21,889 nucleotides of DNA from a virus: IMG/VR virus record IMGVR_UViG_3300028377_000063, positions 1 to 21,889 of that record; one strand, given 5' to 3'. Under the pieces are notes generated by a model. That model did not search any database, was not told the DNA's origin, and worked only from the letters and a program-made list of their open reading frames with translations. Below, piece after piece: positions 1,706 through 21,421 of this stretch; positions within the stretch are counted from its first letter, which is position 1; the number at the start of each line of letters is the position of its first letter. Both the position numbers and the translations under genes were made by a program.

Positions 1706-1713
1706 TATTTATT
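1706..1713 (-). promoter_or_regulatory. T4-type late promoter (AATAAATA)
   Basis: The octamer AATAAATA lies on the minus strand, 5 bases upstream of the ATG at 1700, and is followed by ATT as at most sites of this family in the window. It differs from the T4 late consensus only in the first base. Initiation at the usual distance would fall on or next to the start codon. Confidence 0.65.
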
Positions 1714-1732
1714 CCACATTTTGAAAAAGCAA

Positions 1733-2158
1733 CTATTTTTTAAGAAATTCTATTTTATCCTGTTGTGACATGTTGGCAATATTATTATTAAAGTATTCCC
1801 AGAAATTTTCAATATTATTTTTAGTGTCAACAGGAAATGCACGAATAGAATTACATCTATATACATATATGTTTCGATAATCTTGCATAAATATATCATA
1901 TGTTACCACAAGATTCTTTTCATCTGGGTTATAACCCTTTGGTGGATATGGTGATGCACTTTTTGGGTATCTAAAACCAAGTGCAGATTGAGCACCAATA
2001 GATGCTAAAAATTGGCTGTTTTGAAAATTGGGGTATGCGCCTGTGCAAAACATCCTACGAGTGTTTGAAGACTGCGTAGGATGTTTCCGTTGATATTTTA
2101 ACTCAATAACGTGGTTTAGTAACATTTGTTTTAAACCGTCTCTTGAAAGGAATGCCAT
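1733..2158 (-). CDS. DUF2693-like small phage protein, 141 aa
   Basis: Function unknown. The protein opens with a short helix (SRDGLKQMLLNHVIELKY), then RRMFCTG (residues 34-40), a Pro/Tyr-rich middle (about 62-78), and KNLVVTYDIFMQDYRNIYVYR (about 80-100). The order 'helix, RRM-C-T, later L-V-x-D with a YR strand' resembles the DUF2693 type of small beta-barrel-like proteins found in T4-like and other phages. That likeness was judged from memory and is moderate. It is preceded by a late promoter whose octamer includes the stop codon of the 66-residue gene. A 32-base gap separates it from the next gene, and that gap carries the next late promoter. Confidence 0.7.
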   Translation of the reverse strand: MAFLSRDGLKQMLLNHVIELKYQRKHPTQSSNTRRMFCTGAYPNFQNSQFLASIGAQSALGFRYPKSASPYPPKGYNPDEKNLVVTYDIFMQDYRNIYVYRCNSIRAFPVDTKNNIENFWEYFNNNIANMSQQDKIEFLKK

Positions 2159-2165
2159 ATGTAAT

Positions 2166-2173
2166 TATTTATT
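2166..2173 (-). promoter_or_regulatory. T4-type late promoter (AATAAATA) overlapping a stop codon
   Basis: The minus-strand octamer AATAAATA is followed by ATTACAT and then the ATG at 2158, a spacing of 7 bases. The TAA inside the octamer (2171-2169) is the stop codon of the upstream 66-residue gene. Confidence 0.65.
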
Positions 2174-2369
2174 CATCTTCGTCAAATCGGCACATATATT
2201 CTTGTCTAAATTCAGGTTTTGTTGATATATCATATCTAAGTGGATGATAAATCATTAAGTTCTTCCATGCACGAATATGAACCTTTGCGGTTGGATGTTT
2301 ATCGAATAAATCTGCTATTTCCATCATTCGGTCAGCCATTTCTAGCTCGATATGTTTATGTGAACTCAT
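2169..2369 (-). CDS. Hypothetical protein, 66 aa
   Basis: This is a small, mostly helical and acidic-tailed protein of unknown function; it ends in a run of Asp/Glu. It contains one Trp and several His residues, with no metal-binding pattern that can be argued. The ATG at 2369 overlaps the 3' end of the 215-residue gene by 14 bases, so it is probably translated from the same message by coupling. Its stop codon is built into the late promoter of the next gene. Confidence 0.6.
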   Translation of the reverse strand: MSSHKHIELEMADRMMEIADLFDKHPTAKVHIRAWKNLMIYHPLRYDISTKPEFRQEYMCRFDEDE

Positions 2370-3003
2370 CGTAATATTCGTAAACTTCGTCTAATTGCGA
2401 TTCATCTTTAATGCAATATACATAATCGCCATCGCCACAACTTGTAACTTCAACATCGTTACCGTGTATAGATTTATCATATAACTCACGGGCTACATCA
2501 ATCGAAAAATCTTTGGGAGTGAATGGAAACGACTTGATATATTGCCTACTATTAAGGACTTTATTTGTGCGAAAGTCTTTAATGGAGCCACTAAAGCAGT
2601 CATATTCATCTTCGCCTTGGAACCTAATAGCATCAATATAATATGCCTGACCGTTTTTACCATCCTTAAATACCGCTGATAAACGATTATTTTGATACAT
2701 TTCTTTACCACCAAGGGTGTTATCCAGATTATTCCATTCGCTATCTTCACCAGTTAATGGCGATAATGGGTTGAATGTTAATGCATTCTTAATAGTATTG
2801 CTCAAAACACTCGCATAAAAAGGAGCCGAAAATCCACTATGTCCCTCGTCGGATGCAATTTTTAAAATTTCTCTAATTACATCAATATAATTATGTATAC
2901 ATAGTTTATCTTCATATTCATCTTCATCTGCATATTCTTTGTCTTTTTCAAATTGTGATTGTAGAATCTTCAATTCTCTTTCAAAATGTTCTGTATAGCT
3001 CAT
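2356..3003 (-). CDS. Conserved-type phage protein of unknown function, 215 aa
   Basis: The N-terminal 45 residues are a charged helical segment rich in Glu, Lys and Asp. The middle contains FNPLSPLTGEDSEW, then a YQNNRLSAVFKDGK segment and a YYIDAIRF strand. That order (a P-L-T-G-E-D-x-E-W box, then Q-N-x-R-x-x-x-V-F-K) is one I know from uncharacterised proteins of many tailed phages, but no function is known to me. The C terminus is very acidic and Tyr-rich. I chose the ATG at 3003 over an upstream ATG at 3057: it lies one base after the stop of the GroES-like gene and 7 bases after a G-rich GAGGGGGGG element able to act as a Shine-Dalgarno sequence. The longer frame would bury 55 bases in the GroES-like gene. 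Confidence 0.75.
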   Translation of the reverse strand: MSYTEHFERELKILQSQFEKDKEYADEDEYEDKLCIHNYIDVIREILKIASDEGHSGFSAPFYASVLSNTIKNALTFNPLSPLTGEDSEWNNLDNTLGGKEMYQNNRLSAVFKDGKNGQAYYIDAIRFQGEDEYDCFSGSIKDFRTNKVLNSRQYIKSFPFTPKDFSIDVARELYDKSIHGNDVEVTSCGDGDYVYCIKDESQLDEVYEYYDEFT

Positions 3004-3004
3004 A

Positions 3005-3451
3005 TTATTGCCCCCCCTCAACTTTCTCGCTAATAGCGAAGATACGATCCTCTGCAATAAAGATACAATGATTAATTACACCGTATCCCTTAACATTCAC
3101 CGCCTTTGCATTAATCCCCTTATCATTAGGGAAGGTAACATAATCCCCCTCTTTAACAAGTTGTGAGCCTCTACCTGCCATAACTACCTGCCCAGTCCTC
3201 CATGCTTTAGTCTGACCTGCCATAGTAGGTATAAACACCCCCCCTTTTTTAACATTGTCACCATCGCCATCTTTAAAGTGGACGAGTAATGTATCAAACG
3301 GCATTGCCACAATTTGATATTCTGTATCTACGTCATAGTTTGCGCCTGAATATTTATCCAGTTGAATCGCACCTTTTACCTTATCTTCAGTGCGCATTAT
3401 GTGTTCTCTATGTTTAATTATATCTTCTAGTTGGTTTGTTTGTTGTTCCAT
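3005..3451 (-). CDS. GroES/gp31-like co-chaperonin, 148 aa
   Basis: T4 gp31 replaces host GroES on GroEL so that the major capsid protein can fold; this protein probably plays the same part. The GroES-like beta barrel spans about residues 45-143: a first strand MPFDTLLVHFK, a loop entering GGVFIP (70-75; compare the mobile-loop region of GroES), WRTGQVVMAGRG (84-95), VKEGDYVTFPN (99-109), and a final strand FIAEDRIFAISE. GroES is about 97 residues and gp31 about 111. Here an extra charged, helical N-terminal stretch of some 44 residues precedes the barrel. It lies 4 bases downstream of the gp62-like gene and one base upstream of the 215-residue gene, so all three are probably one transcript. 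Its last codons form a run of seven G. A GroES-like fold is well supported; a strict gp31 role is inference. Confidence 0.78.
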   Translation of the reverse strand: MEQQTNQLEDIIKHREHIMRTEDKVKGAIQLDKYSGANYDVDTEYQIVAMPFDTLLVHFKDGDGDNVKKGGVFIPTMAGQTKAWRTGQVVMAGRGSQLVKEGDYVTFPNDKGINAKAVNVKGYGVINHCIFIAEDRIFAISEKVEGGQ

Positions 3452-3455
3452 AATT

Positions 3456-3863
3456 TTATTTTAATGTGTGTTTAATTTTATCGATGTCAATATATCCTTC
3501 GTTCACTAAATATTTAGTTTCCCTCACTGATAATTCAAGTGCATCAGCTAAAAATTCTAAAGACTCTGTATATAATGCAGTGTCTGATTTGAGTTTAACC
3601 TTTTTGATATAGCTATAATTCACTTTACCGAGATTCGGGAACGTATGGTATAGATAGAGATACGCACTATACTTATCACGAAAATTATATTTATTAAGCT
3701 TATTTAAGAATGGAATAATTTTTTTAGAATATTCGTCTCCGCATGTAATGAAAGATAGCCACCGAATTACCATATAGTTGCCAATATATTTGGCTTCTAT
3801 ATAATCCTTGGACAAAGGTTTCTTCTCTGTAATAGACGAAAGTTGCTTAAATAGATCACTCAC
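3456..3863 (-). CDS. Probable clamp-loader small subunit, gp62-like, 135 aa (GTG start)
   Basis: T4 gp62 joins four copies of gp44 to load the sliding clamp gp45. The match rests on order of features recalled from gp62 proteins: LFKQL near the N terminus, a basic linker, AKYIGNYMVIRWLSF (residues 24-38; compare the Y-x-x-F-M-V-N-R-x-L-S box of the family), LNKYNFRDKYSAYLYLYHTFP (56-75; compare the 'MN-Y-x-F-x-DK' to 'F-L-L' region), and a C-terminal helical YYGYS-like segment (about 100-135). A TTG at 3899 would give 147 residues but coincides with the -35 box. The GTG at 3863 gives a family-like start (M-S-D-L-F) just after the predicted transcription start. T4 gp62 is 187 residues and lies next to gene 44; here it is shorter and about 6.6 kb from gp44. 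Moderate confidence; the alternative is an unrelated small helical protein. Confidence 0.58.
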   Translation of the reverse strand: MSDLFKQLSSITEKKPLSKDYIEAKYIGNYMVIRWLSFITCGDEYSKKIIPFLNKLNKYNFRDKYSAYLYLYHTFPNLGKVNYSYIKKVKLKSDTALYTESLEFLADALELSVRETKYLVNEGYIDIDKIKHTLK

Positions 3864-3870
3864 TAAAATG

Positions 3871-3899
3871 AGTATACCATATAGCGAATGAATTGTCAA
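3871..3899 (-). promoter_or_regulatory. Strong sigma-70-like promoter for the gp62-GroES operon
   Basis: On the minus strand a perfect TTGACA (3899-3894), a 17-base spacer and TATACT (3876-3871) give eleven of twelve consensus matches. The expected transcription start, six to seven bases beyond the -10 box, is at 3864 or 3863, immediately at the GTG start of the gp62-like gene. It occupies the short gap after the 83-residue gene. Confidence 0.75.
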
Positions 3900-3902
3900 A
3901 TA

Positions 3903-4154
3903 TTAATTAACGTTTTCGGCGTTTTCTTCACCACTTACCTTCTCATATATATGAAATGGGACGGCTTTTTGCAATTTAACCGCGATCATCTTATCAGACA
4001 TTCCTGCTTTTTGTAAGAGTTTAATTTGAGTCTCTAGCCCATGGATAAATTTTGGGTGCAGTCCTAAATTTCGTGGATAGAGTCTACGTTGGGTCTGAGT
4101 GATAGACGAATGTGCCTCTTCAATAATATTTTCTACGAGTTTTTTATGTTTCAT
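3903..4154 (-). CDS. Hypothetical protein, 83 aa
   Basis: Not recognised. It is a basic, helical protein (many Lys, Arg and His in the first 60 residues) with an acidic, Asn-rich tail. The segment from about residue 38 to 66 (LETQIKLLQKAGMSDKMIAV) reads as two helices joined by a turn and could be a small DNA-binding or adaptor fold, but no motif proves this. It has its own late promoter 5 bases upstream of the ATG at 4154, and the sigma-70-like promoter of the next gene starts right after its stop. Confidence 0.65.
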   Translation of the reverse strand: MKHKKLVENIIEEAHSSITQTQRRLYPRNLGLHPKFIHGLETQIKLLQKAGMSDKMIAVKLQKAVPFHIYEKVSGEENAENVN

Positions 4155-4159
4155 ATAAT

Positions 4160-4167
4160 TATTTATA
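4160..4167 (-). promoter_or_regulatory. T4-type late promoter (TATAAATA) overlapping a stop codon
   Basis: An exact TATAAATA on the minus strand is followed by ATTAT and the ATG at 4154. The TAA of the octamer (4165-4163) is also the stop codon of the 1040-residue structural gene. Confidence 0.75.
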
Positions 4168-7100
4168 AAAATATCCCTAACCCTTGTCTTATCTTATCGC
4201 CCAACACTGTAGAAATAATTCCACCTTCCACCATAAAGTTATCATATGATGATAAACCTTGGATAGATGTATCAGTTAATTCATTATCCCAGTCAATAAC
4301 ACTGCCCATTTTAGTAGACTCTACGGGTAACATCTCAAAAAAATCATAATAATCCACAAGATTGCCTCCAGAAGGAACAGATAACCCCCATCCCCAATCT
4401 TGTGAATAACTACTCAATGGGTATGTGGTTAAATCATTGAATATTAGTGGTGTGATGATAGTATTATATTCATTAAAACGCTCAGTTGCAATTATTTTAG
4501 TCTGTGGGTCAGCTAATACAGTATAAGTGGAAATGTCGATAGAAGCACCTTTAAAATCCTCAATTACCCCAGTTGTGTATTGATCACCCCAAAGTTTTTT
4601 ATATTTAATACTGAATAAATCGACGATACGTTTAATATCTCTTGGATACACAAGGTCAACTTCAAAATCAATACCTACTTCACTACATACAGATTTTAAT
4701 GCATCTATAGAACATGTATCAACATCACTATGGTTCATTACAAAATTAGCAATTTTTTCATACATGTTTTTGCCGAAGTAAGTCCCGTCATCATATTTAT
4801 TACCGAAAATACTTCCCAGAAAATCATCAAATAAATGATCAAAGTCAAGCATAGATTCAGTGGTTCTATATGACTTTAATGTTTCTGTCATATCAAAATC
4901 CTCATTTATTTTTTGAAGATTATACTTATTTTTTGGATGTATGACAAATGGCTCGGATTCGCCAGATAGACTATATGTATTAACAGTCCCTCCATATCCA
5001 AATTTATTATACCATCTGAAACCATTCCAGTCACCATATGCCACATATTTATTTGTCGTTATAGGTAAATCTTCTGTGATTGATATATTTTGATAAATCG
5101 ATGGATCGGATGCATTAAAAATAACCACCCTATCATTATCACTATCAATTAACCAAACATTACCATATGAATCACCAGCGATCCCACCAATGTTTTTTAT
5201 GCTGTTAATCCCCCCAAATTGTGACAGTGGGTATGTATTACCTATTGTATATAATGTATCGTAAACATTACTACTGGAGATAGATTTTGACGCTACCCAT
5301 AGGGATTGGTTTATATCAATTGTTATAAATTCGGAATTAAATCCAGCGGATTCAGATGATAATAGCGCGTTTGTAGATGTGTCATAACTTCTGATATACG
5401 ACTCCTGTGTGTTAACATTAACAGCTAATACATATAATATATCACCATCCCTATTAGACACCATATCTACGGCTTGATAATTTTCTAGCTCGATAATATC
5501 AGATGATAATACAGATATACCATTGGTTCTATCAATACTGTATTCACCAATAAAATTAGCACTTAAATTTGAAACATATGATATATACATATTAGTATTA
5601 TCACTTATTAATTCAATTGCAGTTGGTTGAAATAATAATTCACCTCTATCAAGTGATGTATTATCAACAACATAATTAGGTAAACCCCCATCAACAACAT
5701 AATTCCCGAATTCGTCAACTATAACATTTGAAGGGATGGGTGGGTATAGCACCATTTCGGTTAATATATTATCATCAGAATAAATTAATTTTGAAGCGTC
5801 TGTTAATGTTATGAAGTAATTTCCTGATTCATCAAAACATAGTTGGGCTGGCGATACATGACCATTAATACTTTCATCATATGAGCTAAGTTCAATACTA
5901 GTTAATACATTAAATGCTGTATCGTATGTTTCAATTCGTGAATCATCACTGTCTAAAAATATTGTTTCATATGATGGTGTAATAGCTGTCCCAAATTTAT
6001 TTGAAGTGAACCCATCAAAGGTGTTGCCAATAATCTCTGAATCTTTTCTATTATACGATGTAGAAAACCCCTCAATAAAAGATACCCGATATATTCTATT
6101 AGAATTCTCATCAGAGAATGCCCCAAATCTTGTAGGGTTTCTATTTAAAGTATAATCGATTAATGTTGATGCCGTTAATATGACACTTGCCGTTGAAATA
6201 TTAGTTGGGGTGAAATATGATTCATAAAATCCACCCAATTTACTAAAATCTGTTTTGAATCTTAATAAACTGTTCCCACTCAAAGATGGACTCGGTAATA
6301 TATCAACATCCCCAATAAAACCAATATCTAAATTATATGAGCCAACTAACTCACTTTCGAAGGGATTTGTTTTTATATAATTACCACTAACGTCAACTAA
6401 TCTAATATTAAATGGTATAGCCGTATTTTGAAATTTTAAAGGATCAAAATCAAATATTCCATTTGATGTTATATCTAATCTATATGGTGTTACATTATCA
6501 ACAAACACGGAATTAATTAAATTTGGATATTGAATATAATTCTCATTTCCAAACTTTACATCGCCATATTTAGATGTGAGTGGTTGAGATACAATTATTG
6601 TTGATGGTAGATATGATGATTCGTCAACATCAATACCAGACGGTGTATCATCGATAAAATAAAATTCTGCGGTCGAACTCGTTCCTACGAATACTGATTC
6701 TGATGGATTTAAGCCCTCACCAATAATTATTTCATCATTAACCATTTGTGCATATAATTTTGTATGCGTTAATGAAACAGTATCAATAACGTTTTCATTG
6801 ACATCGACAAATCTCCAAGTTGGTTTTAGATGAATTCTCTTATCTGTAATGTCAAACGGTATACTGTTGGAATTTTCAACGTAAAATGTTAAAAAGCTAT
6901 TTTCATCGTATGTCTGATAACTATTATATACTTCGGCTTTAAATGGTATAGAGTTTTTTACTGATGCTACGATGGAGGATGATGCATATGAATCACCTGC
7001 CCACTTCATCAAATTAGGTATCAAATTATGTGCAGTAATAGTTTGGGATTCAGATGATACAATGTCACCACTAGAGAGATATTGTGACATTGTAACATCA

Positions 7101-7285
7101 TATATACCAGCTTCGGTATAGACATGTGATGCAGATGATAGCGGTGATGTATTACCATCACCAAAATCCCACAAATAGTAGCTCTTACTATATATATCGG
7201 ATGATAGTGGGTCTGCTGAAAACGGAGTTAACGCATTAGTGTATAATACATTATCAGATGTAATGTTAAAATTTGGATTAGCCAT
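4163..7285 (-). CDS. Large baseplate/virion structural protein with PKD domain, 1040 aa
   Basis: Residues about 15-85 form a PKD-type Ig-like domain, marked by YYLWDFGDGNTS (37-46) and a closing HVYTEAGIYDVTM strand. The middle is Ser/Asp/Asn-rich beta structure with repeated 'D-x-x-GN-(Y/V)' turns. Near residue 700-720 an NHL-like repeat reads GDSYGNVWLIDSDNDRVVIF, suggesting part of a beta-propeller. The last 250 residues differ: a helical stretch (about 800-900) and a Trp/Tyr-rich tail with WGWGLS and DYYDFFE. It follows gp6 with an 8-base overlap (ATGGCTAA). In T4 gp7 (1032 residues) follows gp6, so size and place fit a gp7-type wedge component, but sequence likeness to T4 gp7 was not seen. 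PKD domains in virion proteins are usually linked to surface or carbohydrate contact; that role here is inference. Confidence 0.8.
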   Translation of the reverse strand: MANPNFNITSDNVLYTNALTPFSADPLSSDIYSKSYYLWDFGDGNTSPLSSASHVYTEAGIYDVTMSQYLSSGDIVSSESQTITAHNLIPNLMKWAGDSYASSSIVASVKNSIPFKAEVYNSYQTYDENSFLTFYVENSNSIPFDITDKRIHLKPTWRFVDVNENVIDTVSLTHTKLYAQMVNDEIIIGEGLNPSESVFVGTSSTAEFYFIDDTPSGIDVDESSYLPSTIIVSQPLTSKYGDVKFGNENYIQYPNLINSVFVDNVTPYRLDITSNGIFDFDPLKFQNTAIPFNIRLVDVSGNYIKTNPFESELVGSYNLDIGFIGDVDILPSPSLSGNSLLRFKTDFSKLGGFYESYFTPTNISTASVILTASTLIDYTLNRNPTRFGAFSDENSNRIYRVSFIEGFSTSYNRKDSEIIGNTFDGFTSNKFGTAITPSYETIFLDSDDSRIETYDTAFNVLTSIELSSYDESINGHVSPAQLCFDESGNYFITLTDASKLIYSDDNILTEMVLYPPIPSNVIVDEFGNYVVDGGLPNYVVDNTSLDRGELLFQPTAIELISDNTNMYISYVSNLSANFIGEYSIDRTNGISVLSSDIIELENYQAVDMVSNRDGDILYVLAVNVNTQESYIRSYDTSTNALLSSESAGFNSEFITIDINQSLWVASKSISSSNVYDTLYTIGNTYPLSQFGGINSIKNIGGIAGDSYGNVWLIDSDNDRVVIFNASDPSIYQNISITEDLPITTNKYVAYGDWNGFRWYNKFGYGGTVNTYSLSGESEPFVIHPKNKYNLQKINEDFDMTETLKSYRTTESMLDFDHLFDDFLGSIFGNKYDDGTYFGKNMYEKIANFVMNHSDVDTCSIDALKSVCSEVGIDFEVDLVYPRDIKRIVDLFSIKYKKLWGDQYTTGVIEDFKGASIDISTYTVLADPQTKIIATERFNEYNTIITPLIFNDLTTYPLSSYSQDWGWGLSVPSGGNLVDYYDFFEMLPVESTKMGSVIDWDNELTDTSIQGLSSYDNFMVEGGIISTVLGDKIRQGLGIFL

Positions 7286-9050
7286 TTACAACTGTAATTC
7301 TTGAGGTTAATGATTCTAGGTCAAAGAAGAATGCATATTGAAAATCCTCTAATGAAATATTTTGCGAACTACTGACGTAAGATGTCTCGTAAACAACATC
7401 CCACATATATAAATTAAGTCCAGTTTTTTCAACATTCCCATTAATTGTTGACATTCTGCCAACACCTTTAATATTCAATATAGAGTTTGTGATGACTTGT
7501 AAATCAATAGTTTGCCCAAGCTCAAAATTTGATGGTAGGAAATAGGTTTTAAAAATATCTTTAATTGAATCTTTAATATTCTTAATATCAACACTAGAGC
7601 TTGTAGTATAAATTCTTAATTTCGATTCATCAATATGTGAAAACTCTGGATTGGCATTCGACACGCCAATGTCCACACCCATATATACTGGATCTTGAAT
7701 GATAATGTCTAATGAAATTTCTTTCTTTGTATCCATTGAATCAATAATTAATCTTTTTTGCTCTGTATTCAAATAATTTAAACGTTTAAGTGTGGAATAT
7801 TGTTGCTCAACACGAGGGACTGCATAGATATATACGTTGTTAAAGTTACAAGGCGTTGAGAATGCGTATTGATTAGTTAATACTCGACCGTCCTCAAAAG
7901 GATATACAACCCCAATCTTACTTAAATATGCTATATGCGAGCTAAGAAAATCTCTGTTGTTTACAACCTTAACGCTACTAATAAAGCTACTGTAATTATT
8001 TTTAACAAACGATGTAAAGTCATTCTTACTAATCAAACGATTTTGACTTTGGAAGAAAATGGATGCATTTTCACGAATACTATCAACATCCTCTCGATCT
8101 GATGACTGCGTTGATGGCAATTCATTTGAAAAAGACACACCAGAAACATCTCCTGAAGTGATATAGTTGACGTTACTGATGCTACTGCGTATAGTCTCCA
8201 TGCGTGGTGATGAATATAGGGTGATGTTTCCAGTTAAGAAATTCTCCGTAACCTCACCCTCTTTACTTTGACTATTAAGATAAAAAATACTGATTAAGTC
8301 ACCACTAGCTAAAGACGCCCCATTAATACTATCACCGAACACAATATCATAATTATCATTTTCATTTAGACGAATTGAGAATTTATTTTCATCAAATGAT
8401 GCAAAATATAAATCTTCAATTTTTTCCCACTGTGACCAAACGCCATTTCTACGGACATATACATTAATTGTATTGCTATCGATATATTTATTTTTAGTAG
8501 ATAATTCGATAGTTTCGCCAGCTTCACCAACTGCTGTATAATCCGACAACTGTTCATATTTACCATTGTAAAGAATATATGAATCAGAAAAGTCCACTAA
8601 TTTCTCTTCTTCTCCTCCAGATGTTTCTTTAATAAAAATAGCGTCTTTAATAAATGAATATGAAATACCATTAATATTAAAAAATGAGTAACGTGGGATA
8701 CTGTATGTTCCAGCATCAAGAGTGGATGTGGATGTAAACCCCACAGTGGAAGCAACAAAACCAGTTGGTTTATAACCGATTAACTTAACAATTCTGTTAA
8801 TGTTCTCGTATAATTGTGCATCGGAAAATAATGACTCTTTAGATGTTTGGTTCAAATAAAACAGCATTGTGTTATTTGAATAAGCAATAATATCTAAGAG
8901 GTTGTTGAGATTACTGCCCACAAAATTTTGGTCAGTAAACCATGCATTTTGACTCAACTTCTCGATCATATAATCTTTGAATGATGTTGCATCAAAGTTT
9001 AAATATGCATCAGTGGGTAGGTTGTAGTTGATTAGATTCTCAGTTGCCAT
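7278..9050 (-). CDS. gp6: Baseplate wedge protein gp6-like, 590 aa
   Basis: In T4, gp6 dimers form the ring that holds the wedges together around the hub. The protein has the size of the family (T4 gp6 is 660 residues), follows gp25 directly as in related phages, and shows the gp6/J-like opening: FKDYMIEKLSQNAWFTDQNF, then SNLNNLLDIIAYSNNTMLFYLNQTSKESLF (about residues 24-76). That is the 'S-N-x-x-x-L-L-D-x-x-A-Y' helix common to gp6-type baseplate proteins. A middle region has IFYLNSQSKEGEV. Further on, REDVDSIRENASIFFQSQNRLISKNDF (about 317-343) matches the 'R-E-N-A-x-x-F-x-x-Q-x-R-x-x-T-x-x-D-(F/Y)' element of the family. It has a late promoter 5 bases before the ATG. No internal breaks. 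Confidence 0.85.
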   Translation of the reverse strand: MATENLINYNLPTDAYLNFDATSFKDYMIEKLSQNAWFTDQNFVGSNLNNLLDIIAYSNNTMLFYLNQTSKESLFSDAQLYENINRIVKLIGYKPTGFVASTVGFTSTSTLDAGTYSIPRYSFFNINGISYSFIKDAIFIKETSGGEEEKLVDFSDSYILYNGKYEQLSDYTAVGEAGETIELSTKNKYIDSNTINVYVRRNGVWSQWEKIEDLYFASFDENKFSIRLNENDNYDIVFGDSINGASLASGDLISIFYLNSQSKEGEVTENFLTGNITLYSSPRMETIRSSISNVNYITSGDVSGVSFSNELPSTQSSDREDVDSIRENASIFFQSQNRLISKNDFTSFVKNNYSSFISSVKVVNNRDFLSSHIAYLSKIGVVYPFEDGRVLTNQYAFSTPCNFNNVYIYAVPRVEQQYSTLKRLNYLNTEQKRLIIDSMDTKKEISLDIIIQDPVYMGVDIGVSNANPEFSHIDESKLRIYTTSSSVDIKNIKDSIKDIFKTYFLPSNFELGQTIDLQVITNSILNIKGVGRMSTINGNVEKTGLNLYMWDVVYETSYVSSSQNISLEDFQYAFFFDLESLTSRITVVNG

Positions 9051-9055
9051 ATAAT

Positions 9056-9063
9056 TATTTAGT
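9056..9063 (-). promoter_or_regulatory. T4-type late promoter (ACTAAATA)
   Basis: The minus-strand ACTAAATA is followed by ATTAT and the ATG of gp6. It is the most divergent octamer of the set, but the TAAATA core, the downstream ATT and the 5-base spacing are kept. Confidence 0.6.
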
Positions 9064-9071
9064 CAGTCAGG

Positions 9072-9536
9072 TTAAATTGTAAAGCCATTTTCTGTGAAGA
9101 TCGCACCGTAGTTAAAATTCTTCCCCAATGATGGTAAATTAACCGATAAAGAAATATTATATTTATTATTTTCGGCATCTACATCAATGTTCAAAAAATT
9201 AACCGTAACGCGAGTTTCATACTTTTCAATACCTTGAGCAATACGCCTTGCAATTGATCTAGCAGAAAACTCGTTTACATTCTCAAATAGAAACTGATGA
9301 AAATCAAGTCCATATTCTGGATTTAATATTCTTTGTTTTGGTCTTGTTGAAAATAAATTCCTCAACGAATTACCTATAGCTTGCTCATCAAAGTCTGTAT
9401 CTATATCTGAATTGCCAGATTTCCGTATAGAATTGCTTTCACCAAGTGGAATAAATTCTTTTTGAAGATCAAGGCTCAAATCTGAATATGTATACTCAGT
9501 TGAAGTAGGTTTTTCGAATGTAATTTGTAAGGCCAT
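9072..9536 (-). CDS. gp25: Baseplate wedge protein, gp25/GPW family, 154 aa
   Basis: Gp25 is a small wedge subunit that contacts gp6 and gp53 at the sheath-initiating end of the baseplate. The family core is clear: DEQAIGNSLRNLFSTRPKQR (residues 50-69), then ILNPEYGLDFHQFLFE (70-85), the 'R-x-x-x-P-x-Y-G' signature that ends in LFE, then ARSIARRIAQGIEKYETRV and two final strands. T4 gp25 is 132 residues; here there is a longer N-terminal strand region. The stop is 22 bases before gp6, and the late promoter of gp6 lies in that gap. The gene has its own late promoter upstream. Confidence 0.92.
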   Translation of the reverse strand: MALQITFEKPTSTEYTYSDLSLDLQKEFIPLGESNSIRKSGNSDIDTDFDEQAIGNSLRNLFSTRPKQRILNPEYGLDFHQFLFENVNEFSARSIARRIAQGIEKYETRVTVNFLNIDVDAENNKYNISLSVNLPSLGKNFNYGAIFTENGFTI

Positions 9537-9546
9537 TTCTTTTAAT

Positions 9547-9554
9547 TATTTATG
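9547..9554 (-). promoter_or_regulatory. T4-type late promoter (CATAAATA) for gp25
   Basis: The minus-strand CATAAATA lies 10 bases upstream of the gp25 ATG at 9536 and is followed by ATTAAAAGAA. It faces away from the late promoter at 9588-9595, 33 bases away. Confidence 0.68.
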
Positions 9555-9587
9555 GGAGGATATTGATATTGAAATAACCCACAGTTT

Positions 9588-9595
9588 TATAAATA
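9588..9595 (+). promoter_or_regulatory. T4-type late promoter (TATAAATA), plus strand
   Basis: An exact TATAAATA is followed by ATTAAAAGGCTTAACT and the ATG at 9612. The 16-base spacing is longer than at most sites and contains AAAAGG, a plausible weak ribosome-binding site 7 bases before the ATG. Confidence 0.72.
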
Positions 9596-9611: not shown

Positions 9612-10157
9612 ATGAAATTTAACAAACAATATTCAAAATACGCAAAACTTTATCTTGAAAATGTAAACAACTTCCCCGATCAAGGTGATCAAGTTGTTTT
9701 TAAAAAGGGTTGGGAAAAAGATGAATACGCTCAGAGTATCGTAAACACCAGCACTGGTGAACGCATTCGTGCCATGATTGATCAAGGCACAGACCCTCTT
9801 ATTATCACTGGTATTCAATATAAAAGACCTACTTCATATGGTTCGTTTGGGTCACAAGAACAAAACCACATCCATAATGAGACAGAAATTTATGCTACAG
9901 TGTCGCAACAATACGCCCTTGGGTTGTATAACGCAATTGTTGTATGTCCCGTATCTATGCTACAACGTGTTGAAAATGGCACAAACCTCCCACCACTTTC
10001 GGATAATCAAGTTAAGGAATATCGTCAAACAACTGGCGAACACCCAAATTTGAACAATAGTCCAAATAGTCCTTTGCCTCAAACTAATGCTGCGCTAAAG
10101 GATCACGGATTTAAAAATAACTCTCAGTTGCTTCCAACAAAGCATAAGAAGTTCTAG
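9612..10157 (+). CDS. Hypothetical protein, 181 aa, plus-strand late gene
   Basis: Not recognised with confidence. The N terminus (KFNKQYSKYAKLYLENV) is a basic amphipathic helix. It is followed by GDQVVFKKGW (residues 25-34), which looks like a KOW/SH3-type strand pair. After a helical region come strands around EIYATVSQQYALGLYNAIVVCPVSML, and then VENGTNLPPL. The last 45 residues are Asn/Pro/Ser-rich and low in structure, with a basic end. It is the only coding region on this strand between the wedge block and the clamp-loader block. It has a late promoter and its own terminator, so it is probably a monocistronic late gene and perhaps a virion or assembly protein; that role is inference. 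Confidence 0.8.
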   Translation: MKFNKQYSKYAKLYLENVNNFPDQGDQVVFKKGWEKDEYAQSIVNTSTGERIRAMIDQGTDPLIITGIQYKRPTSYGSFGSQEQNHIHNETEIYATVSQQYALGLYNAIVVCPVSMLQRVENGTNLPPLSDNQVKEYRQTTGEHPNLNNSPNSPLPQTNAALKDHGFKNNSQLLPTKHKKF

Positions 10158-11919: not shown

Positions 11920-11948
11920 AATATATCATAGGTTTACTTGCAAATCAA
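11920..11948 (-). promoter_or_regulatory. sigma-70-like promoter for dut-gp44
   Basis: The minus strand reads TTGATT (11948-11943), a 17-base spacer, then TATATT (11925-11920). Counting seven bases on puts the start at about 11913, the A of the dut ATG, so the message would be leaderless. The -35 box is imperfect, hence moderate confidence. It lies back to back with the late promoter at 11958-11965. Confidence 0.5.
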
Positions 11949-11957: not shown

Positions 11958-11965
11958 TATAAATA
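11958..11965 (+). promoter_or_regulatory. T4-type late promoter (TATAAATA), plus strand
   Basis: An exact TATAAATA is followed by TTTTTAT and the ATG at 11973, a spacing of 7 bases. It drives the gp16-like gene. Confidence 0.72.
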
Positions 11966-13919: not shown

Positions 13920-14271
13920 TTATTCTGGTCCGAATTTTGTCAATCACTAGGCGAACGTATTCTGGTTTCAAAACCTTTAGTTCTGTTCCTGTTTCTGGAA
14001 ATTGAATTGGGTTAATTATACCATTAATTAAACAAATTAACCACCATAAATCAATAGTATTATAATTTTCATATGAAATAATAGTCCATGCAGTAGGTCT
14101 ATTGACAGTATAAATATTATAAAACTCTGGCTCTAAGTCGGTATCAATATCAAGATTATTGCTTAAATTATATATATAATAATTATCAATATCATATACT
14201 TTAAATACATTTTCATATTTAAATTCATCGAGCTTTGGTAAACCGCTTATATTATTTTGATAATCAGTCAT
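13912..14271 (-). CDS. Baseplate wedge protein, gp53-like, 119 aa
   Basis: Gp53 is a small wedge subunit with a LysM-like fold that helps wedges associate. The middle carries PTAWTIISYENYNTIDLWWL followed by ICLINGIINPIQFPETGTELKV. That is the pattern 'W-x-I-x-x-x-x-Y-x-x-x-x-x-W-W-L-I-x-x-x-N-x-I-x-x-P-x-x-x-x-x-G-x-x-L-x-(I/V)' seen in gp53 and other LysM-like baseplate proteins. T4 gp53 is 196 residues, so this is a short form. It starts in a TAATG overlap with the gp48-like gene and ends inside the hub gene start, so all three are likely to be co-translated. Confidence 0.68.
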   Translation of the reverse strand: MTDYQNNISGLPKLDEFKYENVFKVYDIDNYYIYNLSNNLDIDTDLEPEFYNIYTVNRPTAWTIISYENYNTIDLWWLICLINGIINPIQFPETGTELKVLKPEYVRLVIDKIRTRINE

Positions 14272-15572: not shown

Positions 15573-15577
15573 AATGA

Positions 15578-17251
15578 TTAATTTCCAAATGCTGGTCTAA
15601 GTGGGGTATATTCCCTACCATTTCTTTTAACGGCGGAAGATCCACCTGATGTTGCACCAAAGTTATTTATGTTTGTATTTGAACTACTTTGTGTTGATAT
15701 ACCCACACTACCCCCCGATTCATTCATTTTTTTAAGCTCGTCTACTATAGACTGGTCATTTATACGTTGTTGACGTAACTCCATCATTTCTAGCTCAAGT
15801 TTTTTGGCCTTATCTCCCCTCCGACCACGCCATCCATCATCCCCTTCAGATAATAATTGGACTTGTTTTTCGTATTTAGATGTCACTTTAGCGAGTTCGA
15901 TATTAGTATTATCTAAATCCTCTTCTGCATCTACCATTGCCCCTTTTTTATATGATGATAATCCCATCATATCCAACCCTTTGCCAATTAACCCATCTGG
16001 CATACCTCTAATAGAATATAATCTATCAACAATCCATTGTATCATCCCTTGTATCATCGCTGATATAGTATCTGATATAGTTGTATATATAGATTTTATA
16101 CCATCTTTAAGTTTCCCAGACATTGTTTGATCTCCATTTTCATCAACGTCGCCAGTTGTATCACCAACGATAAGGTCATATACTAAGCCCATTCCAGGTA
16201 TTAAAGCAAATCCCGCCCCCATTAATGATTTAAACCCCTCCTTTACGTCACCCCCAACAAAATGGGCAAGTGCTTCACCTAACCGAGTCACAGTCCCAAT
16301 AATAGGCAAATTTCTTGCATTATCTTTTATCCATTTAGACACACCATCTACAGCACCGCTAAGACCACCACCTTTTGCACGATTGGTATCAATAGTTGCG
16401 CTCATAACATCCAATGCTATGGCGATAGCTGTCCCAACACCTGGAACCATTGTGGCTACAGCCGATCCCATAGCCATTAATCCCTGAATAATTTGCCCAT
16501 TTTTAAAACGAATAAATGCATCCCCAAGAGATATAATAGACCCAATAATCGGAATTCGTTTTAAAAAACCCCTCCCAAGAACTTTCAACAATCCCTTCCT
16601 TCCCCCAACTCCAAACGCCTTTGCTACAGAAGATGTTCCCGTTCCGAACATTTTCATAATAATCCCACCCTTCCCGAAAATTTTAGCTGATAAATTTCTA
16701 AGGAGTCCACCCTTTGTAGCAAATAATTTACCAAAAAATCCATTAAACAATGTCGAAAATGATTTTGCTAAAATTGTAAATACGCCTTGAAATGGATCAC
16801 CTGATATCATTTTAGATAATGACCCCAACAATGTGCCACCAATTGCCACCAATGGTATCGCAAATTTAATTATTTTTTCTAATAGACTACTAGTGTTTTC
16901 ATCTTTTGTTTCATCTACGGATTTACTCTTCTTACCCGAGCCAAAATTCAATTTTCGCAATAGGTCATTGTCAATATCAATAATTTTTACTTCAAGAAGT
17001 TGTTTGGTTCTACTTTGGGATTGCGCGTTAGCATCCGACTTAACCTTCTGCATAAAAATTTGATCAATAAAACTACTTTTTATATTTGGAACCTTTTGCT
17101 TATCAAGTAAAAGCCTAGTGGATTCGGCAATGACATCCCTATTTTCTTCTAAAGCTTTTTCAAACGCAGCACGTTCCGCTTGAAGTGCATCAGGCACATT
17201 TGGGCGATATGTATTACTCTTGGGCTTTTCAGCTTTTTTATCCTTTGCCAT
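15578..17251 (-). CDS. Tail tape-measure protein, gp29-like, 557 aa
   Basis: It fills the tube lumen and sets tail length; T4 gp29 is 590 residues, so a tail of roughly T4 length is expected. The first 120 residues are charged and helical. Hydrophobic stretches follow at about 126-149, 232-282 and 314-363. The last two are an internal duplication: IPIIGSIISLGDAF...PGVG and LPIIGTVTRLGEAL...PGMG share the same order of P-I-I-G, L-G-(D/E)-A, G and P-G-x-G elements. Residues about 440-510 are a coiled-coil-like helix (SKYEKQVQLL, ELEMMELRQQ), and the Ser/Asn-rich end is flexible. It lies immediately before the gp48-like gene, as in T4. It has a late promoter 6 bases before the ATG. Confidence 0.8.
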   Translation of the reverse strand: MAKDKKAEKPKSNTYRPNVPDALQAERAAFEKALEENRDVIAESTRLLLDKQKVPNIKSSFIDQIFMQKVKSDANAQSQSRTKQLLEVKIIDIDNDLLRKLNFGSGKKSKSVDETKDENTSSLLEKIIKFAIPLVAIGGTLLGSLSKMISGDPFQGVFTILAKSFSTLFNGFFGKLFATKGGLLRNLSAKIFGKGGIIMKMFGTGTSSVAKAFGVGGRKGLLKVLGRGFLKRIPIIGSIISLGDAFIRFKNGQIIQGLMAMGSAVATMVPGVGTAIAIALDVMSATIDTNRAKGGGLSGAVDGVSKWIKDNARNLPIIGTVTRLGEALAHFVGGDVKEGFKSLMGAGFALIPGMGLVYDLIVGDTTGDVDENGDQTMSGKLKDGIKSIYTTISDTISAMIQGMIQWIVDRLYSIRGMPDGLIGKGLDMMGLSSYKKGAMVDAEEDLDNTNIELAKVTSKYEKQVQLLSEGDDGWRGRRGDKAKKLELEMMELRQQRINDQSIVDELKKMNESGGSVGISTQSSSNTNINNFGATSGGSSAVKRNGREYTPLRPAFGN

Positions 17252-17257
17252 ATTAAT

Positions 17258-17265
17258 TATTTATG
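17258..17265 (-). promoter_or_regulatory. T4-type late promoter (CATAAATA)
   Basis: The minus-strand CATAAATA is followed by ATTAAT and the ATG of the tape-measure gene at 17251, a spacing of 6 bases. Confidence 0.7.
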
Positions 17266-17276
17266 GCTAGATGCTA

Positions 17277-18026
17277 TTAATTAAAAAGTTCTGAAGTCAC
17301 TTGAATATCTGTATCTTCATCAATTTTATACATAGGTTCATGCAATTTCTTTAAGTCTTCAATATATGTTTGAAGCTTAATCAATGCCTCTTCGCCAATA
17401 TTATCTGTAATATCCATTTTATTTTGGAGCGTTTGTTGAGCAAATGACATTGTGTGTTCTGATGATGTAAGACGCATAATAGAGATATATTTACATAATT
17501 CGATAATATATAAATCAGAAATCATCTCACGCACAACATCATCATCACTTGGGGCAATCGCATAATTCTTTGAGTTAGAATATTCTGAATACAGTTTCTT
17601 TTCATCCTTAATGTTTGGAACAGTATATTCAATAATAAGATTATCGGAGGTATCACTCTTTGGTGTGAAGTCCTCCCTGATTTCCCTAATACCCTCAATC
17701 ACATGTGCGAAATCTTTTCCCTTATATAGTTTAGATACGAAGTGATAACGCATTTGAATTAAAATTGCATCCTTATCAAAAGTGGTTAGATTATCAACAA
17801 TGGCTGGCTCAGAACATAATTCTTTGATTAAATCATACACCCTCTGGTTAAAGATAGCATTGAAGATGGGATTATCTAAAGCGGATTGAATTATCAACCT
17901 CTTATGTTTTGCTGTAAGGGTAGAGAAATCTACTTCTCGTTCCAAAGATGGAATATAAATAGACTTAGAAAGAGAATTTACGTTATACTCTTTTAATGAA
18001 TTGATGAAATCGGATGTTTGGCTCAT
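17277..18026 (-). CDS. Baseplate hub assembly protein, gp26/gp51-like, 249 aa
   Basis: The N terminus has a short strand pair and helix, SIYIPSLEREVDFSTLTAKH followed by KRLIIQSALDNPIFNAIFN (about residues 22-60). This is the 'L-P-S-x-x-(K/R)-E-(V/I)-x-F-x-x-L-T-x-K-x-x-K' opening that I associate with the T4 baseplate hub family (gp26 and its relatives). The next segment, LTTFDKDAILIQMRYHF (about 80-96), also fits. A long acidic helical C-terminal part follows. T4 gp51, the hub-assembly chaperone, is also 249 residues, but equal length is not proof. It is flanked by a second protein with the same opening (18057-18905) and by the tape measure. Whether it stays in the virion or acts only in assembly cannot be told from sequence. 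Confidence 0.6.
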   Translation of the reverse strand: MSQTSDFINSLKEYNVNSLSKSIYIPSLEREVDFSTLTAKHKRLIIQSALDNPIFNAIFNQRVYDLIKELCSEPAIVDNLTTFDKDAILIQMRYHFVSKLYKGKDFAHVIEGIREIREDFTPKSDTSDNLIIEYTVPNIKDEKKLYSEYSNSKNYAIAPSDDDVVREMISDLYIIELCKYISIMRLTSSEHTMSFAQQTLQNKMDITDNIGEEALIKLQTYIEDLKKLHEPMYKIDEDTDIQVTSELFN

Positions 18027-18032
18027 ATATAT

Positions 18033-18040
18033 TATTTATT
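18033..18040 (-). promoter_or_regulatory. T4-type late promoter (AATAAATA)
   Basis: The minus-strand AATAAATA is followed by ATATAT and the ATG at 18026, a spacing of 6 bases. A TTGACA lies further upstream (18060-18055), but its best -10 match would start transcription inside the coding region. Confidence 0.63.
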
Positions 18041-18056
18041 TGTCATTATTGATTTG

Positions 18057-18905
18057 TCAACTTTTTGGCGTGGAAAGGTTAAAACCGTTCGGCCCATTAC
18101 TACTACCCCCACCTTCGGCCTCATCTTGCCTTTCTTGTTCTTCATTGAATAATTGGGTATATAGCACAAATTCTGGCATTGTAATACACTTATGTTCTTC
18201 AAATGAAATACCTATTTTTATTTTTAAATCGTATAGATTTTTATATAATGACATTAAATCGTCCTTCAAAAATATTTTTATCATATCATATATGTAATTG
18301 TCTTCTAATGAAAAATTTATATTTTTCCATTGGTTATCCTTGGTATATAAAGTAAATAGGATTATGGATGCATAATCTTTCTCAATACTATCCATCACAT
18401 CGTCTATCTGACTTTCAACATATAGTGGGATATATTCTTTCATGTCACTTGTATACGGGATCTTCTTCCCATGATCCCCAATAAAATATTTAATACAATT
18501 GTCCCTATCAAGCGCATCAATAACTACTTTATCAGCAATGAAATCCTCAACTTCGATAATATATTCGTCGCTGATTGATTGATATTTTGAATAAACTTTA
18601 TTGATTATATCAATCAAGTTAATTTTTATTTTACCTTCAACACCATCTTTCCAAGATGTAAATGTGCGTTCATCGGATACACTATATGACCTTATTGATA
18701 GTAATATGATAAATATGTCGATAAGATTTAAGTGAGGTAATTCTTCAATACATAATTCATCTATAAGGATTTTAGTATAATCTTTGAATAAATTTATATC
18801 ACTTTCCACACAAACCTTTTGGAGATTTTTATAATCATCAACAGTTAATTCTCTAAATTTTAGAGTTTTATTTTCTGTTAATTTAACTTTATAAAAGTAG
18901 TTCAT
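18057..18905 (-). CDS. Baseplate hub subunit, gp26-like, 282 aa
   Basis: The opening YKVKLTENKTLKFRELTVDD followed by YKNLQKVCVESDINLF (about residues 5-40) matches the beta-strand, 'F-R-x-(L/F)-T-V-x-(D/E)' and helix arrangement of the T4 gp26 baseplate-hub family. A 'LIDIFIILLSIRSYSVSDERTF' stretch (split here as LIDIFIILLS and IRSYSVSDERTF) parallels the 'D-x-x-x-L-x-x-x-I-R' part. The remainder is acidic and Ile/Tyr-rich, and the C-terminal 25 residues are Gly/Ser/Glu-rich and probably disordered. The start codon is part of a TAATG overlap with the gp54-like gene, so expression should be coupled to it. T4 gp26 is 208 residues; this is longer. Together with the 249-residue neighbour it may form a heteromeric hub-assembly pair. 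Confidence 0.6.
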   Translation of the reverse strand: MNYFYKVKLTENKTLKFRELTVDDYKNLQKVCVESDINLFKDYTKILIDELCIEELPHLNLIDIFIILLSIRSYSVSDERTFTSWKDGVEGKIKINLIDIINKVYSKYQSISDEYIIEVEDFIADKVVIDALDRDNCIKYFIGDHGKKIPYTSDMKEYIPLYVESQIDDVMDSIEKDYASIILFTLYTKDNQWKNINFSLEDNYIYDMIKIFLKDDLMSLYKNLYDLKIKIGISFEEHKCITMPEFVLYTQLFNEEQERQDEAEGGGSSNGPNGFNLSTPKS

Positions 18906-19750
18906 TAGAATATATTTTTAATTTTGTTGATACTTTCATCTAAAATAACTGTATTTAGAATTTCTTTTACACCACCATTTGAGAACTTATCAATAAGGTC
19001 AAATACTGGAATATATGTTGTATTATACAAATCATATTTATTGTATGCAAACTCGATCCCAGTCCTTCTTTCAACTTCGCCATTTGAATAGTCATATGTT
19101 GCTGATGTGATACCTACAGGGCATACATCATAAAAATTCCATATTTTTCTCGCAATAGGTGCAAGATTTTGGCTAGTAAATCCATATTGAATGACTGTAA
19201 TATTAGTCTTAATACTTTCGGCTTTCGGCCTTGCTACAAGCCCCTTGTGCTCAGATAGAATTGTCCACGGTCTTAATATACCATCAACAAATGATAAATA
19301 TGTCTCTAAGAAGTCTAATATGAGGGGTTGTGCTGGTTCTCTACCTTGTGCTACTGGGCCACCTAGAAAACCCCGTATAGGCGGAGTGTATCCAATTATG
19401 TTACGTTCCTTGGGTAGTCTTACACCTTGGGCGAATACACAACCAATTGTTTTTTGTAAGGCATAATTTGTTAATGCTTTCTTAGGGATGTTCCACCCTT
19501 TCTTGTCACCAGATGTATATTCTAAACCCTGAAGAACTTCCGTTTGGAGTGTTTTTGGAAAATCTTCAAATAATATAATCCATTGTGACGCATTAGATGG
19601 TGCAGATATCCACGATTCCATCTGTTGCAAAAAATAGGAACGTGGGCTAATTGTAACCAAAGATGGTATATTGCCTAGAATAGTTTGGCCTATATCTGGA
19701 GACTGTAAACCACCTTTTTTTAAAACTGTTATTGGGTTATTCAAACTCAT
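18905..19750 (-). CDS. Baseplate tail-tube initiator, gp54-like, 281 aa
   Basis: Gp54 sits on gp48 and is the platform from which gp19 tube rings polymerise; T4 gp54 is 320 residues. The core parallels T4 gp54 in order: FAQGVRLPKERNI (106-118), like the T4 'Y-S-V-K-M-P-E-N-R' strand; GREPAQPLILDFLETYLSFV (136-155), like 'G-R-E-L-D-P-L-V-I-S-F-R-M-D'; and WNFYDVCPVGITSATYDYSN (204-223) then FAYNKYDLYN, like 'F-T-G-C-I-P-I-S-V-S-A-P-E-L-S-Y-D' and the final strand. In T4, genes 48 and 54 adjoin; here they are separated by the two hub proteins and the tape measure. It has a late promoter 10 bases upstream and a TAATG junction to the next gene. Confidence 0.66.
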   Translation of the reverse strand: MSLNNPITVLKKGGLQSPDIGQTILGNIPSLVTISPRSYFLQQMESWISAPSNASQWIILFEDFPKTLQTEVLQGLEYTSGDKKGWNIPKKALTNYALQKTIGCVFAQGVRLPKERNIIGYTPPIRGFLGGPVAQGREPAQPLILDFLETYLSFVDGILRPWTILSEHKGLVARPKAESIKTNITVIQYGFTSQNLAPIARKIWNFYDVCPVGITSATYDYSNGEVERRTGIEFAYNKYDLYNTTYIPVFDLIDKFSNGGVKEILNTVILDESINKIKNIF

Positions 19751-19759
19751 ATGTTATGA

Positions 19760-20428
19760 TTATTTATTCCAATTTTTTGCTGTCCTCACCCATACCGCAG
19801 CAGACAAGGATGCTGCAAGGTTGTCATCATTTAAAATTAATTCCGCAACTTTATTCTGCGTGTGTATATCATTTACTTTCAACGATTTTAAGTATTTTGC
19901 GACACTACCAAATTGTTTATCAAATTTTTTACCAAAGAATTGTTGACTATTAATAAATAAATCTACGGCAGTCTTAGGCTCAACTTGCCAATATCCTCTG
20001 GCTGGCCCACCACCAGTTTGAACCCTAGTTCTATATTGTGATTCGATTTGTCCTGTATAGGACAATAAATCTTTTAAAATATTTGACTGAACTCCATTAT
20101 CTCCATCAAAAATATATGCAGCTATGTCAATTGCTTGCCATGCAGATTTAGGAACATTAACGCCAGCCTCTAATCGCGCCAATGCTTTTTGCTCAGTTGT
20201 TGCATTATCATCCGTTTGATAATATTTACTCCAAATATCGATAACATATGATACATCGTTCAATACCCACGATGACGACTGTTCACGTTGATTAGAATCA
20301 CCTGCAACTGCTACATTTGGCGCACCCATAATAGATGCAGCACCCATTGCAACACCAGCAGCTATTTTACCAAGTTTGCTTTCGGTATATAAACTATATA
20401 TGTTATCATTTTCTACTGCATCGATCAT
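19760..20428 (-). CDS. Lysozyme/transglycosylase-like structural protein, 222 aa
   Basis: Residues about 118-160 resemble a lysozyme-fold hydrolase: LLSYTGQIESQYRTRVQTGG (121-140), then ARGYWQVEPKTAVDLF (143-158). E129 in the I-E-S motif is in the place of the catalytic Glu of lytic transglycosylases, and the 'R-G-x-W-Q-(V/I)-E-P-x-T-A' segment is common in phage muralytic proteins. Residues 21-42 are Ala/Gly-rich and hydrophobic and end in AVAGD, like a signal peptide cleavage site, but they are preceded by 20 polar residues, so this may instead be a virion-embedded segment. It lies between tail tube and tube initiator, which suggests a tail-associated cell-wall hydrolase rather than a holin-partnered endolysin. 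It has a late promoter 5 bases before the ATG. Confidence 0.6.
   Translation of the reverse strand: MIDAVENDNIYSLYTESKLGKIAAGVAMGAASIMGAPNVAVAGDSNQREQSSSWVLNDVSYVIDIWSKYYQTDDNATTEQKALARLEAGVNVPKSAWQAIDIAAYIFDGDNGVQSNILKDLLSYTGQIESQYRTRVQTGGGPARGYWQVEPKTAVDLFINSQQFFGKKFDKQFGSVAKYLKSLKVNDIHTQNKVAELILNDDNLAASLSAAVWVRTAKNWNK
19761..19768 (-). promoter_or_regulatory. T4-type late promoter (AATAAATA) inside the end of the upstream gene
   Basis: The minus-strand AATAAATA is followed by ATCATAACAT and the ATG at 19750, a spacing of 10 bases. The octamer covers the last codons of the lysozyme-like gene and part of its TAA stop. Confidence 0.63.
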
Positions 20429-20433
20429 ATAAA

Positions 20434-20441
20434 TATTTATA
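20434..20441 (-). promoter_or_regulatory. T4-type late promoter (TATAAATA) fused to a terminator
   Basis: An exact TATAAATA on the minus strand is followed by TTTAT and the ATG at 20428. Its first T (20441) is the last base of the T-run of the upstream terminator. Confidence 0.75.
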
Positions 20442-20468
20442 AAAAAGCCCAGAATAACAATTCTGGGC
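20441..20468 (-). terminator. Rho-independent terminator of the gp19 gene
   Basis: On the minus strand a 9-bp perfect stem GCCCAGAAT / ATTCTGGGC (20468-20447) with a TGTT loop is followed by six T (20446-20441). It lies 23 bases after the gp19 stop and would free the abundant tube message from downstream genes. The opposite strand has CTTTTA after the stem and could terminate weakly. Confidence 0.9.
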
Positions 20469-20491
20469 CTTTTATCAAGATTATTGTTTAA

Positions 20492-21040
20492 TTAAATATC
20501 TGATTCTTGCGTAAAATGAAATGAAAACGTTACAGTAAATTCCTGAATCGTCCCTGAATCTTCTATAGTATATTCTAATTCACCAACTTTTTTACATACC
20601 ACACCGACAAGAGATACCTTTTTAATTGGATTTAATTCATTATCAATAAGGACCAAATCAATAACAGCAGATGCCTTTGGGGTGAAATAATTACCTGATG
20701 ATGATTCATCATCGAATACCTCTCTACGCCATCCATCAAGTTTTTCCCAAAGTTGGAATCTCTGATCGGCAAAAAAAGTAAGTGTATATGACTCGCTACC
20801 CGAATATTCTACATTACCTGGGATATTAAAACCTAATCCCATAAATTTGGCTTGACTAGTGGTAACACCAGCAGTTGGCAACTTCGCGGCTTTAACATAT
20901 ACAAGGTCATCTGGCGTAAAAGATACTGACAACCCCGCACCTGAGTTAATTGCTAAAACGCGAATTTGATTCTTACGAGCAAAATCACGTTCCATGGCGA
21001 CTTTATAAAAGTCTCTAATTGTTGATATTCCGTTTGGCAT
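20492..21040 (-). CDS. gp19: Tail tube protein, gp19-like, 182 aa
   Basis: This is the major subunit of the inner tail tube; hexameric rings stack on gp54 around the tape measure. T4 gp19 is 163 residues. Seen: an N-terminal helix RDFYKVAMERDFARKNQIRV (9-28), with the 'D-F-A-R-K-N-x-F/I-x-V' start common in marine T4-like gp19; FMGLGFNIPGNVEY (66-79); SYTLTFFADQRFQLWEKLDG (84-103), the tube-fold strand and helix; and a last strand FTVTFSFHF. It is a stand-alone transcription unit with a late promoter 23 bases upstream and a strong terminator downstream, consistent with high-level production. No Shine-Dalgarno sequence is visible in the leader. Confidence 0.8.
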   Translation of the reverse strand: MPNGISTIRDFYKVAMERDFARKNQIRVLAINSGAGLSVSFTPDDLVYVKAAKLPTAGVTTSQAKFMGLGFNIPGNVEYSGSESYTLTFFADQRFQLWEKLDGWRREVFDDESSSGNYFTPKASAVIDLVLIDNELNPIKKVSLVGVVCKKVGELEYTIEDSGTIQEFTVTFSFHFTQESDI

Positions 21041-21063
21041 AGTTTAAATGAGTTTGTTTTAAT

Positions 21064-21071
21064 TATTTATG
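21064..21071 (-). promoter_or_regulatory. T4-type late promoter (CATAAATA) for gp19
   Basis: The minus-strand CATAAATA is followed by ATTAAAAC and lies 23 bases before the gp19 ATG at 21040. This is the longest leader of the set (about 17 bases), and it is A-rich. Confidence 0.68.
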
Positions 21072-21144
21072 AAAATAAGCACAATTATGGAATTTTATTA
21101 AATTGTTAAATTTATTCCATATGTTAACTAAAAATATATGTAAT

Positions 21145-21405
21145 TTATCCATATACTACAATTGCATCTCCATCATAAACAACATCGTTACCGTAATATA
21201 CAGCATTAGCTGGAACTGATTCCCCTTCGCTATGTGGTGAAAATTTATATCTTTTTTGACCAATATATTTATTCACATTATATGACGATTTAATTTCTGC
21301 TCTCTGTGAAATTTCTGATCTATTATTTGAACGAACTCTATTTCTAAATTTATCATTCACAATAGATTGAATATTCTGTGAAGTTGTTTTAAATGCATTT
21401 CTCAT
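21145..21405 (-). CDS. Hypothetical basic protein, 86 aa
   Basis: Not recognised. The first 60 residues are rich in Arg, Lys, Asn and Ser (for example KFRNRVRSNNRSEISQRAEI) and could bind nucleic acid or be disordered. The last 25 residues are acidic and Gly/Tyr/Val-rich with repeated DVVYDGD-like strands. A late promoter lies 8 bases before the ATG at 21405. It lies just upstream of the gp19 unit, in an otherwise structural region, so a small virion or assembly protein is possible but unproven. No terminator is evident before the gp19 promoter. Confidence 0.65.
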   Translation of the reverse strand: MRNAFKTTSQNIQSIVNDKFRNRVRSNNRSEISQRAEIKSSYNVNKYIGQKRYKFSPHSEGESVPANAVYYGNDVVYDGDAIVVYG

Positions 21406-21413
21406 ATATTAAT

Positions 21414-21421
21414 TATTTATA
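21414..21421 (-). promoter_or_regulatory. T4-type late promoter (TATAAATA)
   Basis: An exact TATAAATA on the minus strand is followed by ATTAATAT and the ATG at 21405, a spacing of 8 bases. Confidence 0.73.

Follow-up and report, generated by a model that had tools for sequence, protein, structure and literature searches.

The window, that is the whole stretch of DNA analysed here, is a 21.9 kb IMG/VR fragment of a T4-like phage, in which gp6, gp25, gp44, a dUTPase, a gp53-like wedge protein, a tail tube protein and a helicase were supported by profiles. The gp6 shares only ~25% identity with its best named matches. The 1040 aa protein adjoining gp6 (window 4163-7285) carries a PKD domain at the N-terminus. 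The features that stand before the genes are collected in Table 1. The sequence-only reading had described thirteen octamers of the T4 late promoter type close to ATGs, and all of them were recovered at the spacings it gave (TATAAATA five times, AATAAATA four times, CATAAATA three times and ACTAAATA once); ATT follows directly in nine. Profiles back the assignment of gp6, gp25 and the tail tube; neither 'small terminase' nor 'lysozyme-like', two labels of that reading, was supported by PHROGs or Pfam.

Table 1. Octamers, early promoter and terminator in the window (gap, bases between the element and the ATG; positions in the 21.9 kb window)
Feature	Position	Strand	Gap	ATG	Gene	Remarks
AATAAATA octamer	1706..1713	-	5	1700	116 aa gene	orthologues L005, L006, L007 at gap 5
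AATAAATA octamer	2166..2173	-	7	2158	141 aa gene	4 near relatives at gap 5-6, flanks unrelated
TATAAATA octamer	4160..4167	-	5	4154	83 aa gene	relatives at gap 6-7
ACTAAATA octamer	9056..9063	-	5	9050	gp6 (baseplate wedge)	4 near relatives at gap 6
CATAAATA octamer	9547..9554	-	10	9536	gp25	divergent from the plus-strand gene at 9612; near relatives at gap 6-8
TATAAATA octamer	9588..9595	+	16	9612	181 aa gene	near relatives L005-L007 at gap 15-18
sigma70-like early promoter, TTGATT-17-TATATT	11920..11948	-	6	11913	dut	6 is the mode for early promoters of the clade
TATAAATA octamer	11958..11965	+	7	11973	161 aa gene	divergent from dut, 59-base intergenic stretch
CATAAATA octamer	17258..17265	-	6	17251	557 aa putative tape measure	
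AATAAATA octamer	18033..18040	-	6	18026	249 aa gene	2 far relatives with AATAAATA at gap 5
AATAAATA octamer	19761..19768	-	10	19750	281 aa gene	
TATAAATA octamer	20434..20441	-	5	20428	222 aa gene	terminator U-run immediately before
intrinsic terminator hairpin	20447..20468	-				U-run abuts octamer; -19.3 kcal/mol, z -5.5
CATAAATA octamer	21064..21071	-	23	21040	tail tube (gp19-like)	not leaderless; 5 far relatives at gap 5, G026 at gap 26
TATAAATA octamer	21414..21421	-	8	21405	86 aa gene	

One site places a limit on the transcript itself. The U-tract of a strong terminator runs into the TATAAATA octamer of the 222 aa gene; a transcript arriving from upstream would end there, and the mRNA of this gene must therefore start at most ~14 bases from its ATG. 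Several octamers share bases with the stop codon that ends the preceding gene, so that read-through and re-initiation could also express the genes behind them. A gap-0 'octamer' before gp44 was rejected as a promoter, being composed of the C-terminal codons and the stop of dut (GGT AAA TAA).

Octamer position in the window and its relatives

Relatives were sampled via gp6, which gave 80, all of them uncultured. Five 'near' relatives share 67-69% gp6 identity with the window, and the remaining 'far' ones share 36-41%. A 75.8 kb near-clade contig (G026) was tied to the window via the tape measure gene. Gene calling in the clade contigs, near and far, was mechanical and took the first ATG as the start. 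L009/G014 of 47.8 kb and L266/G026 of 75.8 kb, both near-clade contigs of metagenome 3300002231, may belong to a single phage genome; the 217 kb contig L120 (G001) carries ~12 tRNAs and a predicted tmRNA. A search for the host through gp6 relatives in bacterial genome contigs found none. The actinobacterial marker WhiB is absent from the contigs searched, and the host is therefore probably not an actinobacterium. A tRNA-Arg 31-mer of G003 was discarded as a host clue, as it matches Sphingobacteriaceae, Opitutae, Planctomycetes and others, and is not specific.

The number of TAAATA strings in the window is not unusual (63, versus 56 +/- 7 in shuffles), which is what would be expected if the octamers were a chance product of A/T-rich composition. 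The signal lies in their position, however, and this already refutes chance. In the window, NATAAATA stands at gap 5-8 before 8 of the 24 called gene starts but before only 3 of 933 other ATGs (Fisher p = 7e-12), so that the window alone gives a p of about 1e-11. Across the clade, the motif is carried by 127 of 896 gene starts and by 30 of 23304 other ATGs. The enrichment at gene-start ATGs over other ATGs is ~100-fold, and ranges by position from 40- to 370-fold per clade contig, values that partly reflect the common ancestry of the contigs. Moreover, control motifs, both unrelated and A/T-rich, lack a peak at gap 5.

The distribution of the gaps between NATAAATA and the ATG has a sharp wall. 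In 11 clade contigs, gaps of 5, 6, 7, 8 and 9 occur 63, 46, 15, 16 and 8 times; whereas gaps of 0 to 4 occur 0, 1, 2, 2 and 0 times (5 in total). The spacing seen by the sequence-only reading is thus not local to the window. The octamers keep gap 5-6 in orthologues whose flanks have diverged, and the sequence upstream of them carries little information, with no -35 element. Long open frames behind gap-5 octamers in these 11 contigs open with ATG in 75 cases and with GTG in 16 (TTG is not among the codons listed), and ATG-only gene calls therefore miss some cases. A variant octamer, with TAAGTA for TAAATA, likewise has its maximum at gap 5, with 11 cases, in far relatives such as L131, L044, L104 (gp53), L017 and L027 (gp25).

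The T4 late octamer spans positions -13 to -6 (PMC1524935), and gap 5 would thus put +1 on the A of AUG, if the T4 spacing holds. For most genes, the predicted +1 is this A or a position up to ~3 nt before it.

Late-gene specificity, early promoters and Shine-Dalgarno signals

Genes of ten clade contigs were assigned to classes by labels taken from similarity to HTVC008M proteins. An octamer at gap 4-9 stands before 28 of 70 late structural homologues versus 3 of 76 replication homologues (p = 4e-8). An abutting sigma70-like -10 element was observed in the opposite pattern, before 0 of 70 and 14 of 76, respectively (p = 7e-5). Both p values are generous, because the homologues come from related contigs and do not count as independent. 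About ten late families contribute (gp3, gp6, gp13, gp15, gp17, gp18, gp19, gp21, gp25 and gp54), and six early ones (gp32, gp41, gp45, gp46, nrdB and uvsX).

The sequence-only reading had suggested looking for a gp55-like late sigma factor, gp33 and gp45 elsewhere in the genome. Homologues of gp55 occur in 6 of 24 relatives (the far contigs G001-G004, G009 and G010) and in the near-clade contig G026; the 21.9 kb window itself contains none. The gp45 sliding clamp has homologues in G003, G004 and G009, which were found by phmmer with HTVC008M gp45 as the query, whereas PHROG and Pfam profiles missed gp45 in the relatives. The profile search for the coactivator gp33, a short and divergent protein, gave at most one doubtful match.

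Four findings agree: the gaps rise abruptly at 5, the octamers are specific to late genes, relatives encode gp55 homologues and a terminator abuts one octamer. The octamers are therefore very probably T4-type late promoters giving leaderless or near-leaderless mRNAs, as part of a genome-wide layout and with 5' ends placed by promoter geometry. The host RNA polymerase with the gp55-like sigma factor would recognise the octamers, and ribosomes would bind the 5'-terminal AUG of the leaderless mRNA with no Shine-Dalgarno pairing.

The layout is not confined to the late genes, because early sigma70-like promoters also abut the ATG. For example, the early promoter of dut and the late octamer of the 161 aa gene point away from each other. 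In the 11 clade contigs, sigma70-like -10 elements were found in 6 cases at gaps 0-5, 22 cases at gap 6 and 12 cases at gap 7. The sigma70 -10 element spans -12 to -7; at the gap-6 wall, the canonical +1 would therefore again be the A of AUG. Promoters of the sigma70 type are thus likewise predicted to set +1 at the AUG, genome-wide. The claim of a leaderless strategy for late genes holds in that late promoters lie near the ATG, unlike in T4, but fails as a trait peculiar to these genes. The same applies to the absence of Shine-Dalgarno sequences: they are missing before late genes as had been stated, but are missing genome-wide in the clade. SD-like 4-mers are about equally frequent before and inside the clade genes, unlike in HTVC008M and T4, and the regions upstream of genes are A/T-rich in general.

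These two observations would also suit an A/T-rich translation-initiation element: TAAATA could lie within longer transcripts, serve an SD-less host and be no promoter. The motif, however, is largely limited to late genes, and precedes 4-5% of overlapping operon-internal genes, which have an equal need of initiation, versus 16-63% of the others. Moreover, the motif is the T4 late promoter consensus in a clade where gp55 is present in relatives, it lies mostly 14-50 nt upstream of the ATGs in other T4-like phages, and a strong terminator stands immediately before one copy. The translation-element explanation is therefore unlikely. Still less probable, indeed very unlikely, is that the octamers are promoters whose true start codons lie downstream of the called ATGs, behind a normal leader. 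The mechanical calling from the first ATG leaves room for such errors; however, alignments of orthologues begin at residue 1 or close to it (gp25, the 141 aa gene and the tail tube), the gap wall at 5 refers to the called ATG, and the downstream Shine-Dalgarno sequence that would be needed is absent clade-wide.

Comparison with known phages and genes with leaders

The late promoters of T4 (gp55/gp33/gp45) share with those of the clade the octamer consensus, the late-gene specificity and the lack of a -35 element. The spacing differs: the T4 octamer is 14-35 bases from the ATG, with a Shine-Dalgarno sequence, whereas that of the clade is mostly 5-8 bases away. Gaps longer than those of the clade, mostly 14-50, were found in T4, Melnitz, phiM12, Cr30 and three cyanophages. 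The cyanophages P-SSM2, Syn9 and S-PM2 resemble the clade in their NATAAATA late promoters and little use of Shine-Dalgarno sequences; however, their octamers stand 15-57 bases from the ATG, and leaders are kept.

The cultured SAR11 (Pelagibacter) phages HTVC008M and Mosig EXVC030M are mixed. Some late octamers stand at gap 5, too close for a Shine-Dalgarno sequence to fit, as in the clade; other late genes have gaps of at least 16, mostly with a Shine-Dalgarno sequence, and such sequences are common genome-wide. In HTVC008M, they occur in 12 of 15 leaders where the octamer is 16-60 nt from the ATG, and in 0 of 17 cases at gap 9 or less; the latter figure is partly forced, because there is no room, and the long class is the informative half. 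Since part of the genes of these cultured phages share the layout, it is testable now. For pelagimyophages, a published study reports that the search for late promoters had no success (PMC7029224), which the abutting layout may explain.

Leaderless transcription occurs in bacteria, for example in mycobacteria (PMC4633059), where, as in the clade, the promoter abuts the start codon and there is no Shine-Dalgarno sequence. The mycobacterial genes use host promoters; whereas the clade adds a phage-specific late class of the gp55 type. No report of leaderless late genes in T4-like phages was found in the open-licence literature.

Among phages, mRNAs that lack a leader are as a rule uncommon exceptions. 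In this large uncultured T4-like branch, a regulon known from the best-studied type of phage appears to be leaderless. The arrangement is real and conserved, and it combines T4 late transcription with mRNAs that, as judged from where the promoters would place their 5' ends, are leaderless. If true, this would show how promoter spacing and translation mode change together. The layout also offers gene finders a start-site rule for marine and freshwater phages.

The layout is common but not universal, since gp23 in relatives and the tail tube gene of the window, with its 23-base gap, keep leaders; these would represent a minority of late genes, and longer leaders are retained by some genes of the clade. 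A wider interpretation, which we favour with some reserve, is that the whole T4-like clade rebuilt both its host-sigma70 early promoters and its gp55 late promoters, so that most units would be leaderless; gp23 might keep its leader as an exception, perhaps for high output, and the SAR11 phages might be intermediate. In the four relatives that were read, gp23 (major capsid) has no abutting octamer. An octamer-like site is present ~40 bases upstream of gp23 in G001 and G007, with a purine-containing leader between. Unlike many late genes, gp23 appears to keep its leader in L140, L141, L142 and G026 (66895-68353).
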